NCBI GenBank assembly: GCA_014728225.1
Contig: WJLX01000053.1
Span: 1-37,149 of the forward strand
Origin: Candidatus Coatesbacteria bacterium
GTDB lineage: Bacteria; RBG-13-66-14
Reading direction: 5' to 3'
Length of the DNA: 37,149 nucleotides
The position numbers and the translations under genes were made by a program. Below, one piece after another: positions 4,996 through 33,110 of the stretch (the stretch's first letter is position 1; each line of letters starts with the position of its first letter). The notes beneath the pieces were generated by a model. It saw only the letters and a list, made by a program, of their open reading frames with translations, ran no database searches and was not told where the DNA came from.

Positions 4996-5174
4996 GGGAG
5001 ACCTTTGAAAACACCGCCGGCGTCAACGACCGCCGCCCCCGGAACCGGCACGGTTTTTGCATCTCGGCGACCGTGAGGCCGATGCTAACGGTCCGCCTCC
5101 GCAAAAACCGTGCCGGTTCCGGGGGCGGCGCGGCACCGTCGGCCGGTCTTGCAAGGCGTTTTCAAAGGTCTCCC
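4996..5174. repeat. Nested inverted-repeat element, copy 1 (convergent sigma54-like arms)
   Basis: The outer arms 4996-5012 and 5158-5174 are a perfect 17-bp inverted repeat. The inner arms 5031-5060 and 5101-5130 are a perfect 30-bp inverted repeat. The 40-nt centre starts ATCTCGGCGACCG and ends ACGGTCCGCCTCC, adding a 6-bp GACCGT/ACGGTC stem. The inner arm carries CGGCACGGTTTTTGC, where the other copies have TGGCACGG; the change is mirrored in both arms. The element fills the space between zapA and the first tonB gene, ending 3 nt from the tonB stop codon. Orientation is the same as copy 2. Confidence 0.9.
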
Positions 5175-11221: not shown

Positions 11222-11406
11222 GAGCTTTGAAAAACAGCCACCGCTCGCGGTCTTGACCCTCGAACAACCCGGCGCGGAACTGGCACGGTTTTTGCATCTC
11301 GGCGCCCCTTGGCGGGGGGGGCGCCGGTCGCGCCTCCGCAAAAACCGTGCCAGTTCCGCGCCGGGTTGACGGTGTCGAGGCGTTTGGTGGCTGTTTTTCA
11401 AAGCTC
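11222..11406. repeat. Nested inverted-repeat element, copy 2 (convergent sigma54-like arms)
   Basis: The outer arms 11222-11242 and 11386-11406 are a perfect 21-bp inverted repeat (GAGCTTTGAAAAACAGCC side). The inner arms 11265-11295 and 11338-11368 are a perfect 31-bp inverted repeat containing GGAACTGGCACGGTTTTTGC. The centre starts ATCTCGGCGCCCC and ends GCGCCTCC, the same orientation as copy 1. It lies in the gene-free space between the convergent tonB and PorV-like genes. Confidence 0.9.
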
Positions 11407-25250: not shown

Positions 25251-25448
25251 GGCGACCCGGGAAAACCGCCGCGGGATTCGTCCGGCCAAACGCCGAACCT
25301 CGGGCGGCCGGAACTGGCACGGTTTTTGCGGAGGCGGAACCGTCCTCCAGTCCACCGGGGCGCCGAGATGCAAAAACCGTGCCAGTTCCGGCCCGGGCCC
25401 AGCCGCGACGTAGGGGAGAAAGCGTCGGGCGGTTTTTCCCGGGTCGCC
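25251..25448. repeat. Nested inverted-repeat element, copy 3 (convergent sigma54-like arms)
   Basis: Outer arms 25251-25270 and 25428-25448 are complementary except for one extra T. The inner arms 25306-25329 and 25370-25393 are a perfect 24-bp inverted repeat carrying GGAACTGGCACGGTTTTTGC. The centre begins GGAGGCGGAACCG and ends GCGCCGAGAT, the reverse orientation of copies 1 and 2. It ends 56 bp before the prfB start codon, so its rightward sigma54-like arm faces prfB. Confidence 0.88.
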
Positions 25449-25504: not shown

Positions 25505-26618
25505 ATGAGCGACTTCGCCGAAACCGCCGAACGCGCCCGCCTCGCCGTCGCCGACCTCTGGGGGTGCCTTTGACCCCGAGACCAAGCGCGAGCGGTTGGC
25601 GGAACTGAATGAACGGATGAGCGCCCCGGACTTCTGGGACGATCCGCAAGCGGCGGGCAAGCTTTCCGCCCGTGCCTCGCGCCTCAAGGAGGAGCTCGAG
25701 CGGGCCGACAGGCTGCGTGCCGAGCTTTCCGACCTCGAGGAGCTCGGGGCCATGTCCCTCGAGGAGGGGGACGATGACGAACTCGGCCAGGTCGTCGACG
25801 GTCTGGAGAATCTGACCCGGCGGGCCGAGAAGCTGACCGCCCAGGCGTTGCTGTCCGGCGAGTACGACGACGAGGACGCCATCGTCGAGCTGCACCCCGG
25901 CGCCGGGGGCACCGAATCCGCCGATTGGTGCGAGATCCTCTACCGGATGTACGTGCGATACTGCGAGCAGCGCGGCTGGAAGGTCGAGCTGCTCGAGCTG
26001 GCCCCGGCCGACGAGGCCGGGCTCAAATCCGTCACCATGGCCGTCCGCGGCGAGCTGGTCTACGGCCGCCTCAAGGGTGAGATCGGCGTCCACCGCCTGG
26101 TGCGCATCTCGCCCTTCGACGCTTCCGGCCGCCGTCACACCTCCTTCGCCGCCCTCTACGCCTATCCCGACCTGGACACCGACGTCGAGTTCGAGATCAG
26201 CCCCGCCGACCTGCGCATCGACGTCTTCCGCGCCTCGGGCCACGGCGGCCAGTCCGTCAACACCACCGACTCCGCCGTGCGCATCACCCACAAACCCACC
26301 GGCATCGTCGTCAGTTGCCAGAACGAGCGCAGCCAGCACGCCAACCGTGATTACGCGATGAAGGTCCTGCGGGCCCGCCTGGCCGATCATTACCGTCGCC
26401 AGCGCGAGGCCGAGCTGGCCGACTCCAAGGCCGACAAGAGCGAGATCGCCTGGGGTCAGCAGATCCGCAACTACGTTCTCCATCCCTATCGGCTGGTGAA
26501 GGATACCCGTACGGGTTGTGAGACGGGCAGCGTCGACGCCGTTCTCGACGGCGACCTCGAGGCCTTCATCGAGGCCTACCTGCGCTGGGTGCACAAGAAG
26601 GAGAAAAGCAATGGCTGA
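25505..26618 (+). CDS. prfB: Peptide chain release factor 2, programmed +1 frameshift
   Basis: Recognises UGA/UAA stop codons and triggers peptide release. The zero frame runs from ATG 25505 to an in-frame TGA at 25571-25573. A +1 shift after CTT (25568-25570) continues at GAC 25572 to the stop at 26618, giving 370 residues. Diagnostic RF2 features: the S202-P203-F204 codon-recognition tripeptide, G247-G248-Q249 (GHGGQS) for peptidyl-tRNA hydrolysis, and the late phrase SQHANRDYAMKVLRARL. GGGAG precedes the ATG. Regulation is autogenous: low RF2 lets the ribosome shift instead of stopping. The coding sequence overlaps the restriction gene downstream by 8 nt. Confidence 0.96.
25560..25574 (+). 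promoter_or_regulatory. prfB programmed frameshift site
   Basis: An internal Shine-Dalgarno-like GGGGGT lies immediately before CTTTGAC. The CTT codon slips to TTT when the TGA stop is slow, the classical RF2 recoding signal. Confidence 0.93.
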
Positions 26619-27633
26619 ACGAGCTTGGATGGTGCGTGCCGGCAGGGATGCGATTCTGGCCGACCAATTCGAAGAAAAAGAACTGGTTGCCATTGGCCAT
26701 GATCTCGATGATATAAATGACTACAATGACCTACTGGCTGTAAAATCTGCATTAAAGAAACGGTTTCCAGAAGCAAAAAGAATGCAGATCGCAGTTTGGG
26801 CGGGCCAATTGTGGAGGTTGGCCAAGGAGATCGAGCCGGGCGATTATCTCGTTACCTATCTACCCGCCAGTCGAGAGTATTTGATCGGGCAAGCGGCCGA
26901 TGGATACCAATACGATCCGAAAGCCATCGACGAGTATGAAGGCGAATACCCGCATATTCGCAGAGTGGAGAGCTGGCGACGGGCGGATCGAGACCTGCTT
27001 TCCCAATCCGCCCGAAATACTCTTGGTGCGATTTCAACACTTTTCGAAGTAACGAAAATCCTTCCAGAGTTACTGGCGGTGGCCGAGGGTCAAGCAGCCA
27101 CAGAAATGGACCAACCAGAACCCGAAGAGGAAGAGGACGAAACGGCAATCGACTACTATGAGGATGTTAAGGCTCGAAGTGACGAACTAATTGGAGACTT
27201 GCTGGCCCGCCTCGACGGTTACGAGTTCGAGGATCTTACCGCTGCTTTACTACGGGCGATGGGCTACTACGTCACCCAAAGCGCCAAGGGGCCTGATCGC
27301 GGCGTTGATATCCTGGCCGGCCCCGATCCGTTCCACCTGGAACAGCCTCGGATAAAAGTACAGGTAAAAAAGCGCGAGAGTGCAGCCGACAGCAACATGA
27401 TCCGCAGTTTTATCGGCATCCTACAGTCCGAAGACCGCGGCCTTTTCGTCTCCTTCGGTGGATTCTCCAAGGATGCCCGTATCGAGGCAGAACGCTCCAA
27501 CCGACCGATAACCCTTCTCGACCGCTTGGAGTTCACAAGACTCTTACTCGAGCATTACGAGAAGCTGGAGCCGGAGTACCAACGCCAGATACCCTTGAAA
27601 CCCGTCTATCTTCCTACTACGACGACAGAGTAA
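26611..27633 (+). CDS. Mrr-type restriction endonuclease-like protein (COG4127-like)
   Basis: 340 residues. The N-terminal half (about 1-130: EKELVAIGHDLDDINDY, QIAVWAGQLWRLAKEIEPGDYLVTYLPASREYLIGQA) resembles the sensory part of COG4127 predicted nucleases and may be an EVE/PUA-like fold. An acidic linker (about 165-178) leads to a C-terminal Mrr_cat domain: E207 in YEFEDLTAALLRAMGY, D233 in RGVDILAG, and Q251-V-K253, the E-D-QxK nuclease core. The ATG overlaps the prfB stop (ATGGCTGA) with AAGGAG ahead, so translation is coupled. Codon use is visibly AT-richer than in neighbouring genes, suggesting acquisition by transfer. No methyltransferase is nearby, so a type IV-like, modification-dependent role is possible. 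Confidence 0.8.
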   Translation: MAERAWMVRAGRDAILADQFEEKELVAIGHDLDDINDYNDLLAVKSALKKRFPEAKRMQIAVWAGQLWRLAKEIEPGDYLVTYLPASREYLIGQAADGYQYDPKAIDEYEGEYPHIRRVESWRRADRDLLSQSARNTLGAISTLFEVTKILPELLAVAEGQAATEMDQPEPEEEEDETAIDYYEDVKARSDELIGDLLARLDGYEFEDLTAALLRAMGYYVTQSAKGPDRGVDILAGPDPFHLEQPRIKVQVKKRESAADSNMIRSFIGILQSEDRGLFVSFGGFSKDARIEAERSNRPITLLDRLEFTRLLLEHYEKLEPEYQRQIPLKPVYLPTTTTE

Positions 27634-29413: not shown

Positions 29414-30172
29414 TCAGGCCCAGGGATCGAAAACGCCCAGCAGGATCAAGGCCGCCCCGATCACGCCCAGCACGGGCACCAGCACCCGCCAGAGCTTGAC
29501 CCGGCCCTCGAGACCCTCGACGAGTTCGCGCTCGCTCTTCAGGCTGATGATGTAGCGGTCGTCATCACCGCCGGTGGCCTGCATGGCCAGGGCGCCGCCG
29601 CGGTCGGTGACGTGGCCCAGGGCGTAGACGGGGACGTCCAGGGGCACCAGCCATTCCTGCTTGCGGTAGCCGAGGACGCGGTTCTCGCCGTAGCCGGGCT
29701 CCTTCTCGAAGCGGTCGTAGACGACGTGGGCGCCGATGATCTCGGCCCCCTCGGAGCGCACCGGGATCCGGCCGGACTCGTCGGTGACGTAGAAATCGCT
29801 GCGATCGGTCTCGTCGGAGACGGTCTCCCAGATCTGCTGGACCTGCTTGCGCCGACGTCCCTTGTTGTCGGTGGTCCAGCGGGTCTCCTGGCGCTGGCGC
29901 TCGACGACGGAGCGGTACCACACGCCGCGCTTGCCCGACATCGGCGCGGTGACCGGATCGTCGGCCTTGATGACACCCTTGAGTTCGCAGGGGAAACTGA
30001 ACTCGCCCTCGAGCATCTCGTCCTGGGTGGTCTGGTAGACCTCGCGGATCTCCTTGGCGCTGTAGGTCTCGGTGCCGATGATCTTCTCGCGTTTGCGCTT
30101 GGCGGCGCCGAGTACGAAGAAGCCGACGACGGCGATCAGCAGGCTGAGCCCGCCCCCGATGTAGAAACCCAT
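29414..30172 (-). CDS. GIDE-domain membrane protein (bacterial MULAN/E3-ligase-like, no RING)
   Basis: 252 residues. N-terminal membrane helix (about 4-24: YIGGGLSLLIAVVGFFVLGA) and C-terminal helix (about 228-248: LWRVLVPVLGVIGAALILLG) flank a soluble domain. That domain has the GIDE pattern CELKGVIKADDPVTAPMSGKRGVWYRSVVE, then a basic loop, FYVTDESGRIPVR and LDVPVYALGHVTDRGGALAM. The eukaryotic relative MUL1/MULAN carries a RING finger after this domain; here no RING cysteines exist, so ligase activity is not expected. AAAGGAG precedes the ATG. Its function in bacteria is unknown to me. Confidence 0.75.
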   Translation of the reverse strand: MGFYIGGGLSLLIAVVGFFVLGAAKRKREKIIGTETYSAKEIREVYQTTQDEMLEGEFSFPCELKGVIKADDPVTAPMSGKRGVWYRSVVERQRQETRWTTDNKGRRRKQVQQIWETVSDETDRSDFYVTDESGRIPVRSEGAEIIGAHVVYDRFEKEPGYGENRVLGYRKQEWLVPLDVPVYALGHVTDRGGALAMQATGGDDDRYIISLKSERELVEGLEGRVKLWRVLVPVLGVIGAALILLGVFDPWA

Positions 30173-30281: not shown

Positions 30282-31247
30282 TCAGTTATCAGCGACGAAA
30301 ACGCCCCAGGCGGCCGCGGCGGATCCGATGACGGCCGCCCGCCAACCCAGCTCGGCCCGGACCAGCCTCAGCCGCGGCCGCGGCGGGAAGAGCGCCCCGG
30401 CCAACACCTCGCGCGTGGCGGGCAGGAACAACTCCCCGGCGGCGGCCAGACCACCTCCGATGACCACCAGGTCGGCGTCGATCAGGGTCAGGGCTCGGGC
30501 GATGCCCACGCCGAGCCAATGGCCGGCCCGGCGGAACAACCGCCGGCAAACCTCGTCACCGGCCTCGGCGAAATCGGCCAGCAAACGACAGTTGATATTC
30601 TTCGCTTCACCGCCCGCGGCGGCCAGCAGACCGGCCAGCTCACCGGAACGGGCCAGCTCCGTCGCCCGACGGCGCAGGGCTCCGGCGGAGCTGAAGGCCT
30701 CCAGACAGCCGCGACGACCGCAGGCGCAGACCGGGCCGGCGGGATCGACGAGCAGATGGCCCAACTCGAGGGCGTTGCCGTGGGCCCCGAACAACGGTCG
30801 GCCGTCCTGGAGCGCCCCGCCGCCGACGCCGGTCCCCAGGGTCAGGCCGAGGACGTCGTCGCAACCGGCGGCGGCGCCGCCCCAGGCCTCGCCGAGGACG
30901 AAGGCCGTCCCGTCGTTGAGCAACTCGACGGGGACCTCGAAGGCTTCCTCGAGCAGGGCCGTCAGCGGGACGTCGTGCCAGGCGCTCAGGTTGACCGCCC
31001 CCTGGATCCGTCCCGCCGGACGCTCCAGCGGACCGGGGGCGCCGACGCCCAGGGCGACGAGTTCGATCTCACCGTCCGCTTCGGCGGACATCGCGGCATA
31101 GTCGTCCAGCAGTCGATCGCGCAGCCCCAGGGGGCTCAGGCCGTCACGGTGGGTCAGCCGACGCTCCGTCAGGACCACCCCCCGGGAATCGACCAGCCCC
31201 AGACGCAGGTTGGTCCCCCCGAGATCGATCCCCAACACCACGCGCAT
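30282..31247 (-). CDS. ROK-family sugar kinase (glucokinase-like)
   Basis: 321 residues. An ATP-binding phosphate loop lies at the N-terminus (GIDLGGTNLRLG, residues 6-17). The catalytic base is in LLND112G, and the second glycine loop is LTLGTGVGGG. The ROK zinc site is complete: E161-L-G-H164 plus C174-A-C176-G-R-R-G-C181-L-E183. The C-terminal DLVVIGGGLAAAGELF phrase is also typical. There is no N-terminal helix-turn-helix, so it is an enzyme and not a ROK repressor. Likely substrates are glucose, mannose, fructose or N-acetylated sugars; the choice cannot be read here. AAAGGAG lies 9 nt from the ATG. It is divergent from the receiver-domain gene. Confidence 0.9.
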   Translation of the reverse strand: MRVVLGIDLGGTNLRLGLVDSRGVVLTERRLTHRDGLSPLGLRDRLLDDYAAMSAEADGEIELVALGVGAPGPLERPAGRIQGAVNLSAWHDVPLTALLEEAFEVPVELLNDGTAFVLGEAWGGAAAGCDDVLGLTLGTGVGGGALQDGRPLFGAHGNALELGHLLVDPAGPVCACGRRGCLEAFSSAGALRRRATELARSGELAGLLAAAGGEAKNINCRLLADFAEAGDEVCRRLFRRAGHWLGVGIARALTLIDADLVVIGGGLAAAGELFLPATREVLAGALFPPRPRLRLVRAELGWRAAVIGSAAAAWGVFVADN

Positions 31248-31260
31248 CGTCGCGGTCTCC

Positions 31261-31289
31261 TTTACAGTCTTTTACGCCCTTGGTATTCT
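31261..31289 (+). promoter_or_regulatory. Sigma70-type promoter for the receiver-domain gene
   Basis: TTTACA (31261-31266) and TATTCT (31284-31289) are 17 bp apart. The predicted start near 31296 leaves a 42-nt leader that contains GGAGG ahead of the ATG at 31338. Confidence 0.5.
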
Positions 31290-31337: not shown

Positions 31338-31940
31338 ATGGCCGACAAACAGGGTGATAAACGCCCCTGCGTCTGGCTGATCGACGACGAGGAACGTAAC
31401 CACCTCGCCCTCGATGAGCGCCACGGCGAACGCTTCGATATCCGCCACTTCTACGAGCCCGCTGAGCTGCTGGCGGCCCTGGAGGAGGAGCGACCCGACC
31501 TCATTCTCAGCGACGTCTTTTTCCTCGAGCCGGGTCGCGACGAGGAGGGCGCCGCCCTGCAAGCCGAAGCAGCCGCCATCCGACGCAAACTCGCGGACTT
31601 CGCCGAACGCTACCGCGGCGTCTACCACCCCGCCGGTCTCGAACTGGCCGACAAGCTGCGCCGAGAGTACCCCGGCCTGACCAACGTCGTCTACTCGAAC
31701 AAGGCCCCGCTGCTCCTCGACAAAGGCGGCTTCTCCCGCATCACCACCGCCGCCGGACCCGTCTGGATCTTCAAGGGCTACGAGAGCGTCGAGGCCGAAC
31801 GGCTCAAGATCAACGCCGTACTCCAGGGAGCAGAACACCGCAAGCACTACCTGCGGCTGAAAGGCCTGACCGTCATCGTCGGCCTGCTGGCGGCGGCGGC
31901 GGGTTGGGTCCTGGGACTGGTCCTCAGCGGAGGATTGTAG
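31338..31940 (+). CDS. Membrane-tethered response-regulator-like receiver protein
   Basis: 200 residues. The N-terminus reads like a divergent CheY-type receiver: acidic pair D16-D17 in WLIDDEER, putative phosphoacceptor D59 in PDLILSDVFF, S120 in NVVYSNKAP at the switch Ser/Thr position, and K146 in WIFKGYES at the conserved lysine. About 40 residues (65-105) are inserted between D59 and the switch strand. There is no DNA-binding or enzymatic output domain. Instead the protein ends in one transmembrane helix (about 177-197, LTVIVGLLAAAAGWVLGLVL), so the receiver would sit at the inner face of the membrane. No histidine kinase is adjacent. Good ribosome-binding site (GGAGG, 8 nt). Confidence 0.65.
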   Translation: MADKQGDKRPCVWLIDDEERNHLALDERHGERFDIRHFYEPAELLAALEEERPDLILSDVFFLEPGRDEEGAALQAEAAAIRRKLADFAERYRGVYHPAGLELADKLRREYPGLTNVVYSNKAPLLLDKGGFSRITTAAGPVWIFKGYESVEAERLKINAVLQGAEHRKHYLRLKGLTVIVGLLAAAAGWVLGLVLSGGL

Positions 31941-32023: not shown

Positions 32024-32205
32024 CCCGCCGTTGAAAAACAGCCCCCGCTGCACACCTAACCGCCGCCGCCCGCCGGAACTGGCACGGTTTTTGCGGAGGC
32101 GGACCGTTATCATTCGTCCTAACGGGCGCCGAGATGCAAAAACCGTGCCAGTTCCGGCGGGCGGCGGTATCACGGGTTGGCCGGGGGCTGTTTTTCAACG
32201 GCGGG
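32024..32205. repeat. Nested inverted-repeat element, copy 4 (convergent sigma54-like arms)
   Basis: The outer arms 32024-32047 and 32182-32205 are a perfect 24-bp inverted repeat (CCCGCCGTTGAAAAACAGCC side). The inner arms 32063-32094 and 32136-32167 are a perfect 32-bp inverted repeat carrying GGAACTGGCACGGTTTTTGC. The centre begins GGAGGCGGACCG and ends GGGCGCCGAGAT. Reversed, this centre aligns closely with that of copy 1. It lies between two convergent genes. Confidence 0.92.
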
Positions 32206-32260: not shown

Positions 32261-32788
32261 TCATTCCCGGGGTTCGATGTCCAGGATGTTGACCAGGCGG
32301 GCGGGTTCCCGGCAACTGAAGACGTAGAACTCGCATTCTTTTTCGTCGGACTCCCGCACCTCGAGGCGCACCCCGGGGCCGCCGTCGGTAGCCCAGTAGT
32401 AGGTGCCGTCGCGGCCGCGTCGCCGTCCCAGCCCCCGGGCCTGGGAGAGTTGGATGACCGCGGGTTCGGCAGCGCGCAGGTGTTTGCGGCGCAGCTTCTT
32501 GCGGAACAGGCCGAAGGCCAGGATCACCCGGCGCTGGGTGACGGTGACGGTCAACTGTGTCAGGTTGACGCCGAAAAACAGCACCGCCGAGGCCAGCAGG
32601 GCGAACAGGCCGAAGAGCACCAGCCCTCGGGTGGTGTCGAGCTCGCCGAGGCTGAGCACGACGCCGACCAGCAGTCCCAGGGTGACGAAGACGGTTATCA
32701 GGAAGGTGGCCTTGGAGAAGGCGCTTTCCCGGTAGATGACGACGTCGCCGCCGGACCGGGGTTGTTTGTAGGTTTTTTTCTCGCCCAC
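32261..32788 (-). CDS. PH-like two-helix membrane protein
   Basis: 175 residues from GTG 32788. That start follows the arsR stop by 10 bp with AAGGGCGGG ahead; an ATG at 32821 overlapping arsR is the alternative. Two membrane helices (FLITVFVTLGLLVGVVLSL and LVLFGLFALLASAVLFFGV) are followed by a beta-rich domain, TVTVTQRRVILAFGLFRKKL and VIQLSQARGLGRRRG, ending in a strand-rich tail. This resembles bacterial PH/YdbT-like membrane proteins, but the match is by pattern only. It forms an operon with the ArsR regulator. Confidence 0.6.
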   Translation of the reverse strand: MGEKKTYKQPRSGGDVVIYRESAFSKATFLITVFVTLGLLVGVVLSLGELDTTRGLVLFGLFALLASAVLFFGVNLTQLTVTVTQRRVILAFGLFRKKLRRKHLRAAEPAVIQLSQARGLGRRRGRDGTYYWATDGGPGVRLEVRESDEKECEFYVFSCREPARLVNILDIEPRE

Positions 32789-32798
32789 GTCCCGCCCT

Positions 32799-33110
32799 TT
32801 AGGATCCGGCGTCGGGAGCATCCTGACCGACGCCCATGCAGTTGCCGAGGGAGACGATGATCTTGATCAGGTCGGGGTTGGCCAGGGAGTAGCAAACCCG
32901 GTTGCCGTCGCGTTCCGAGTTGACGATGCCGTTCTGTCGCAGCACGGCCAGGTGCTGGGAGATGTTGGGCTGCTTCAGTCCGAGCTCTCGGCGGATCTCC
33001 TCGACGCAGCGCATCCCCAGGGACAACAGGCCGACGATCCGCAGCCGGGTGGGGTGGCCGAGGGCTTTGAAGTGCCGCGCCAGCTCATCGCATTGCGCCA
33101 GTTTCGTCAT
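32799..33110 (-). CDS. ArsR/SmtB-family winged-helix regulator
   Basis: 103 residues, a typical length. The winged helix-turn-helix is clear: ALGHPTRLRIVGLLSLG, then CVEEIRRELGLKQPNISQHL (recognition helix), AVLRQNGIVNSERDGNRVCYSL (wing). A cysteine at residue 35 (MRCVEEI), one in the wing (RVCYSL) and a late one (GNCMG) could bind metal or sense thiols, but the full ELCVCD motif of arsenic sensors is absent. GGGAGGAA precedes the ATG. It probably controls its own promoter and the membrane protein gene behind it. Confidence 0.88.
   Translation of the reverse strand: MTKLAQCDELARHFKALGHPTRLRIVGLLSLGMRCVEEIRRELGLKQPNISQHLAVLRQNGIVNSERDGNRVCYSLANPDLIKIIVSLGNCMGVGQDAPDAGS

Follow-up and report, generated by a model that had tools for sequence, protein, structure and literature searches.

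A divergent receiver family with an inserted helix and a C-terminal membrane tail in Candidatus Coatesbacteria and Planctomycetota

Most response regulators do their work away from the membrane, on DNA or on a motor. The stretch of DNA analysed here (the window: 37,149 nt, the entire contig C53 of source genome G000) carries a gene for a receiver-like protein that ends in a hydrophobic segment, which raises the question of what a receiver fixed to the membrane would do there. We call the gene REC-TM, and its parts are as follows.

31338..31940, plus strand: REC-TM gene, an ATG-start ORF of 200 aa encoding a receiver with a predicted membrane anchor, conserved in 10 genomes
31371..31523, plus strand: N-terminal receiver half (beta1-alpha1-beta2-alpha2-beta3, residues 12-62) with D16/D17 and D59, from the NtrC profile match, superposition and model
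31539..31622, plus strand: inserted helix, residues 68-95, from the model helix, heptad statistics, hhalign gap and spacing
31632..31787, plus strand: C-terminal receiver half (alpha3-beta4-alpha4-beta5, residues 99-150) with S120, K122, W143 and K146
31788..31925, plus strand: alpha5 continuing as one predicted helix into the anchor, residues 151-196, hydrophobic at 178-196, with G189xxxG193

Receiver identity, family and membrane tail

REC-TM is a divergent receiver, and the family-level evidence for this is firmer than that from the single sequence. Alone, the protein matched PF00072 (Response_reg) over residues 12-60 with an E-value of 0.0058 and 17.2 bits, against a gathering cut-off of 30.2, and the NtrC receiver with an E-value of 0.026. 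Its score lies under the Pfam gathering threshold and it is therefore termed a divergent receiver by profile and fold, not a Pfam member; it is absent from the 19 Response_reg hits of the source genome. A profile of 8 members aligned with the NtrC receiver (E 1.5e-5) in two pieces, one on each side of the insertion, the second being weak by itself. When 10 members were aligned by hhalign with 13 of the 19 Response_reg hits, our canonical comparison set, the match reached 97.2% (E 3.1e-11) with residues 67-99 gapped. Among solved structures the nearest in sequence is the NtrC receiver (PDB 1dc7, 1krw), whose match covers residues 8-61 and extends weakly into the GLEL-like helix that comes next. 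Unlike NtrC, REC-TM has no AAA+ or DNA-binding domain and possesses the insertion and membrane tail.

Structure comparison, limited to folds listed by VIA-align, agreed with the receiver assignment made earlier, and the unrelated fold that had been named as refuting it did not appear. By title, nearly all Foldseek PDB rows at E<=0.001 were response regulators or receiver domains, with 2rjn, 28tm_A and 3kcn as exceptions. In a structure search of BFVD nothing reached E<=0.001. No output-domain family was found in Pfam or NCBIfam, as the earlier note had proposed. A CHASE2 match (E 0.015) was taken as chance because it occurred in only one of 8 members.

The assembled family has ten members (alignment A5), from seven Coatesbacteria and three Planctomycetota genomes, and Candidatus Coatesbacteria MAGs make up most of the named relatives of the locus. 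A search of 98 genomes gave 8 with a match at E<=0.001, which covered most of the query in 7 and residues 8-63 only in G076. Matches occurred in 7 of 14 genomes of the source phylum, and the same 7 were recovered at E<=1e-9 from 386 genomes of wider kinship. Of 392 Planctomycetota genomes (the phylum of G098), 17 matched at E<=0.001, two of them over most of the profile. The class of G237 gave 1/75 genomes at E<=1e-9 and that of G098 gave 2/397 at E<=1e-8, adding G1134. The large searches may have missed members, since no more than 8 candidates were scored in each genome. A contig search identified 9 of 94 pattern stretches as relatives, 6 of which belong to the REC-TM family.

Matches confined to the N-terminus were left out of the family. 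In the other 15 matching Planctomycetota genomes the alignment reached position 105 at most, and these were taken as ordinary receivers, with ORFs inspected for part of them. Likewise, L008 and L015-L017 (3 of the 9 contig-search loci) aligned N-terminally only and their ORFs look like ordinary multi-domain response regulators. REC-TM had no match in G004, where the neighbouring 186-aa gene, too, is represented by no more than a weak match at a contig edge; this absence is for that reason not a clear loss. A phage or plasmid origin was rejected: REC-TM was unmatched in phages, had no PHROG and no relative in viral contigs, and the proteins of L014 and L027 had no plasmid match.

The acidic pair D16/D17, D59, S120 and K146 occupy receiver positions, as had been read from the single sequence. 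D16, D59 and S120 are each present in 10/10 members across the two phyla, and G100 and A123 are also invariant (10/10). D17 is kept in 9/10 (N in L003), K122 in 9/10 and Y119 in 9/10, with F in the remaining member. The switch position W143 is W in 8/10 and F in one more, hence aromatic in 9/10. K146 is found in 8/10 members; in L014 and L067 the lysine comes one residue later. The homologues have thus not lost D59 and K146, the loss named earlier as refuting a receiver. The KP that follows beta5 in 13/13 source-genome receivers is KG in REC-TM.

The displaced K146, the D17 substitution, the change of KP to KG and the bulky insertion beside D59 would suit a pseudo-receiver, a membrane scaffold that works unphosphorylated and in which the acidic pocket serves structure or metal binding. 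The invariance of D16, D59 and S120 across two phyla and the near-constant aromatic at W143 argue against this reading, which we consider unlikely. Substitution rates between the window and L002 speak against a chance resemblance: with dN 0.13 / dS 0.79 at residues 12-62 and dN 0.21 / dS 0.57 at residues 99-160, the receiver core is, by this estimate, under purifying selection. The insertion (dN 0.59 / dS 0.78) and tail (dN 0.75 / dS 0.76) are by the same estimate weakly constrained in sequence, much less than the core.

The proposal of a single C-terminal membrane helix was supported by the sequence. Residues 178-196 are the only hydrophobic segment of the chain, with a Kyte-Doolittle mean of 2.35 over 19 residues, and are flanked by 4 K/R in the preceding 20 residues and 0 after. 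By the positive-inside rule, the basic side of a transmembrane segment faces the cytoplasm; the receiver is therefore predicted on the cytoplasmic side. An equivalent tail with preceding basic residues is present in 9/10 members, L067 being without one. GxxxG occurs in 8 of the 9 tailed members, but the members are related and the motif also turns up in 7-57% of shuffled tails, depending on the member.

The inserted helix and a proposed output at the membrane

The earlier note described a 40-residue insertion after the phosphoacceptor. The insertion is real, helical and placed between beta3 and alpha3, but the hhalign gap and residue spacing reduce it to about 31-33 residues. It is present in 10/10 members, in which D59 and S120 lie 59-67 residues apart, compared with 28-30 in the 13 canonical source-genome receivers. 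Its heptad positions are L74, A78, I81, L85, F88, Y92 and V95, and the hydrophobic pattern is kept although the letters vary. In the best register 61 of 70 a/d cells are hydrophobic, and of 20000 column shuffles 10 did as well. The figure is not a strict probability because the 10 rows are related; the register had also been noticed before testing, although all 7 registers compete in the test.

The kept receiver site, extra helix and membrane tail together suggest that REC-TM probably acts through protein contact at the membrane and not through DNA binding. With moderate confidence we thus read it as a single-domain response regulator, tail-anchored and phosphorylatable, that would deliver its output as protein contact at the inner membrane; output, partners and kinase are all inferred. 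In this scheme D59 would be phosphorylated by a histidine kinase whose gene lies elsewhere in the genome. The resulting change at D59, S120 and W143 would shift the neighbouring insertion helix together with the alpha4-beta5-alpha5 face. Contact would then be made on the membrane's inner face by the heptad helix, probably along with a GxxxG-assisted dimer of transmembrane helices; REC-TM would not bind DNA and has no enzymatic output domain. A small family of two phyla, fixed to the membrane and with an extra helix at the phosphorylation site, would read a phosphoryl signal there in a way of its own.

The earlier note had offered a membrane platform or a phosphate sink. A membrane-bound sink would relieve a membrane kinase of its phosphoryl groups and pass nothing on, consistent with the absence of an output domain, the kept phosphorylation residues and the kinases encoded elsewhere in the genome. 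It leaves unexplained both the anchor and the heptad insertion conserved next to the phosphoacceptor, and neither a kinase nor a second receiver was linked to REC-TM in the neighbourhoods inspected. We judge the sink improbable. The platform, as a predicted function, fits better because it accommodates the conserved heptad insertion and the anchored tail.

That the kinase is not in the window proved correct: contig C53 holds none of the source genome's 14 HATPase_c hits, nor any of its 19 Response_reg hits. Four of the 14 (on C61, C90, C154 and C40) lie on contigs with no Response_reg hit, although these contigs may be incomplete. Frames in L055, L057 and L060 contain what we take to be H-box-like motifs. 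Outside family f1, none of the 11 other window genes tested matched in REC-TM neighbourhoods; with only REC-TM in common, these neighbourhoods indicate no partner.

Two neighbourhoods drew separate attention. Gabija-type GajA and GajB (L014 4442-8639; PADLOC E 1.1e-192 and 1.8e-118) precede the Planctomycetota member L014. They were treated as coincidence, and a defence role rejected, because they are distant (about 640 nt), an opposite-strand ORF intervenes and they lie near L014 only among the neighbourhoods inspected; 0 PADLOC families match the REC-TM protein. The tail-less member L067 (about 4739-5347 of L068, minus strand) lies about 190 nt behind a weakly SixA-like gene on the same strand, the two together spanning L068 4739-6704. 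This neighbour matches TIGR00249 (SixA phosphohistidine phosphatase) at E 9.5e-5, below cut-off, has no Pfam match at E 0.01, and contains stretches hydrophobic by eye and an RHG motif, which we take to be typical of histidine phosphatases. In this one case a phosphoryl-signalling gene may bear the membrane part instead.

Single-domain response regulators are already known. REC-TM shares with the CheY/Spo0F/DivK type the predicted receiver fold, the acidic pair, the phosphoacceptor Asp, the Ser/Thr and Lys positions and the lack of an output domain, and differs from it in the helical insertion of 31-33 residues, KG in place of KP, and the C-terminal membrane anchor. A membrane anchor is also reported for MetOD3, an archaeal response-regulator output domain found in methanogens (excerpts of PMC5847659), a likeness drawn from that description. 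Response_reg_2 (PF19192) is, in the excerpted text of PMC8011034, a divergent receiver with loop extensions and a linked HEF_HK gene; those extensions fall at other loops than that of REC-TM, near which no HEF_HK gene was seen. PF19192 matched neither REC-TM (Pfam, E up to 10) nor the 8 members (E up to 1), in searches whose HMMER filters can drop weak matches. Our literature searches found no description of the REC-TM family in bacteria. In titles, abstract openings and excerpts of PMC8011034, PMC5847659, PMC4823666, PMC3018481, PMC4395418 and PMC6718144 we recognised no bacterial single-domain response regulator described as fixed to the membrane, and nothing combined Coatesbacteria with response regulators.

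Two structural models of the receiver

AlphaFold gave a closed receiver of mean pLDDT 55.6 from 7 sequences. Its best Foldseek E-value was 3.7e-5, and many rows aligned about 110 residues at 2.2-2.9 A with Z near 12. From 10 sequences the mean pLDDT was 87.6 and pTM 0.63, with the order beta1-alpha1-beta2-alpha2-beta3-inserted helix 68-95-alpha3-alpha4-helix 151-196; beta3 spans 55-58, and beta4 and beta5 are merely two-residue stretches. Several of the top rows superposed 55-58 residues of the N half of this model (residues 9-65) on receivers at about 1.3-1.9 A (3c97: Z 8.2, 55 residues, 1.3 A), whereas whole-length receiver matches were mostly at about 12-17 A. The two halves of the model do not seem to pack against each other the way they do in an ordinary receiver. 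The models therefore disagree, a closed monomer against separated halves, and the more confident prediction is the less ordinary one.

This disagreement leaves room for an obligate domain-swapped membrane dimer, in which the inserted, coiled-coil-like helix would allow each site to join the N half of one chain to the C half and transmembrane helix of the other. Phosphorylation would then report and control the pairing of two membrane anchors, and REC-TM would be a natural test of whether two receiver halves can be shared between chains. The fit of the better-supported model by its N half favours such a swap, as does the presence of PhCheY among its best receiver-spanning rows (6er7_A: Z 7.6, 115 residues, 14.4 A; 6exr_C: Z 7.4, 112 residues, 11.9 A). 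Other receiver-spanning rows are PleD chains, which we presume not to be swapped. According to excerpts of PMC6718144, Pyrococcus horikoshii CheY crystallised as a domain-swapped dimer hinged at the beta3-alpha3 loop, the position of the REC-TM insertion; PhCheY has neither insertion nor anchor, and its authors exclude a physiological role for the swap. With the 7-sequence model closed, albeit at low pLDDT, and the other resting on 10 sequences only, we find the swapped dimer the most doubtful of the readings weighed and retain that of a phosphorylatable regulator acting by protein contact.

Immediate surroundings of the gene

The features flanking REC-TM are as follows.

30282..31247, minus strand: ROK-family sugar kinase, divergent from REC-TM, adjacent in 4/5 other family-f1 loci
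31261..31289, plus strand: sigma-70-like promoter site TTTACA-17-TATTCT with TG before the second hexamer, a consensus match only
32261..32821, minus strand: 186-aa membrane protein, convergent with REC-TM, kept in 4/5 other family-f1 loci

The REC-TM ATG is preceded by GGAGG, and the sigma-70-like site lies 48 nt 5' of the ORF (1 found versus a shuffle mean of 0.1). Standing between the divergent ROK kinase and the convergent 186-aa gene, REC-TM appears monocistronic and is, by the direction of its flanking genes, probably transcribed alone. Four of the 5 other family-f1 loci share the gene order ROK, REC-TM, 186-aa membrane protein, ArsR; L046 does not. The 186-aa protein matches DUF3093 at E 4.7e-4, below cut-off.

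Several further observations were made in the window. A GIDE (E3 ubiquitin ligase-like) domain protein is encoded at 29414-30172 on the minus strand (PF12483, E 1.9e-23), and a GIDE-domain gene also lies near REC-TM in L012, L045 and L046. The C-terminal part of the ORF at 26518-27633 (plus strand) resembles, by eye, an Mrr-type restriction endonuclease domain. Just 5' of a prfB-like ORF (25596-26618) is CTTTGAC (25568-25574), possibly the programmed frameshift motif of release factor 2; it occurs 2 times in the window against 2.66 expected by chance.

We also found a palindromic interspersed repeat, composed of AACTGGCACGGTTTTTGC, about 41 nt and the reverse complement of AACTGGCACGGTTTTTGC. 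The 2.96 Mb source genome contains 255 forward and 240 reverse matches (<=1 mismatch), roughly 240 copies, and 0 matches to the reversed control pattern. Copies in the window lie at 32063-32167, 25306-25393, about 11278-11355 and 5093-5119, and one copy separates the REC-TM gene from the next gene.
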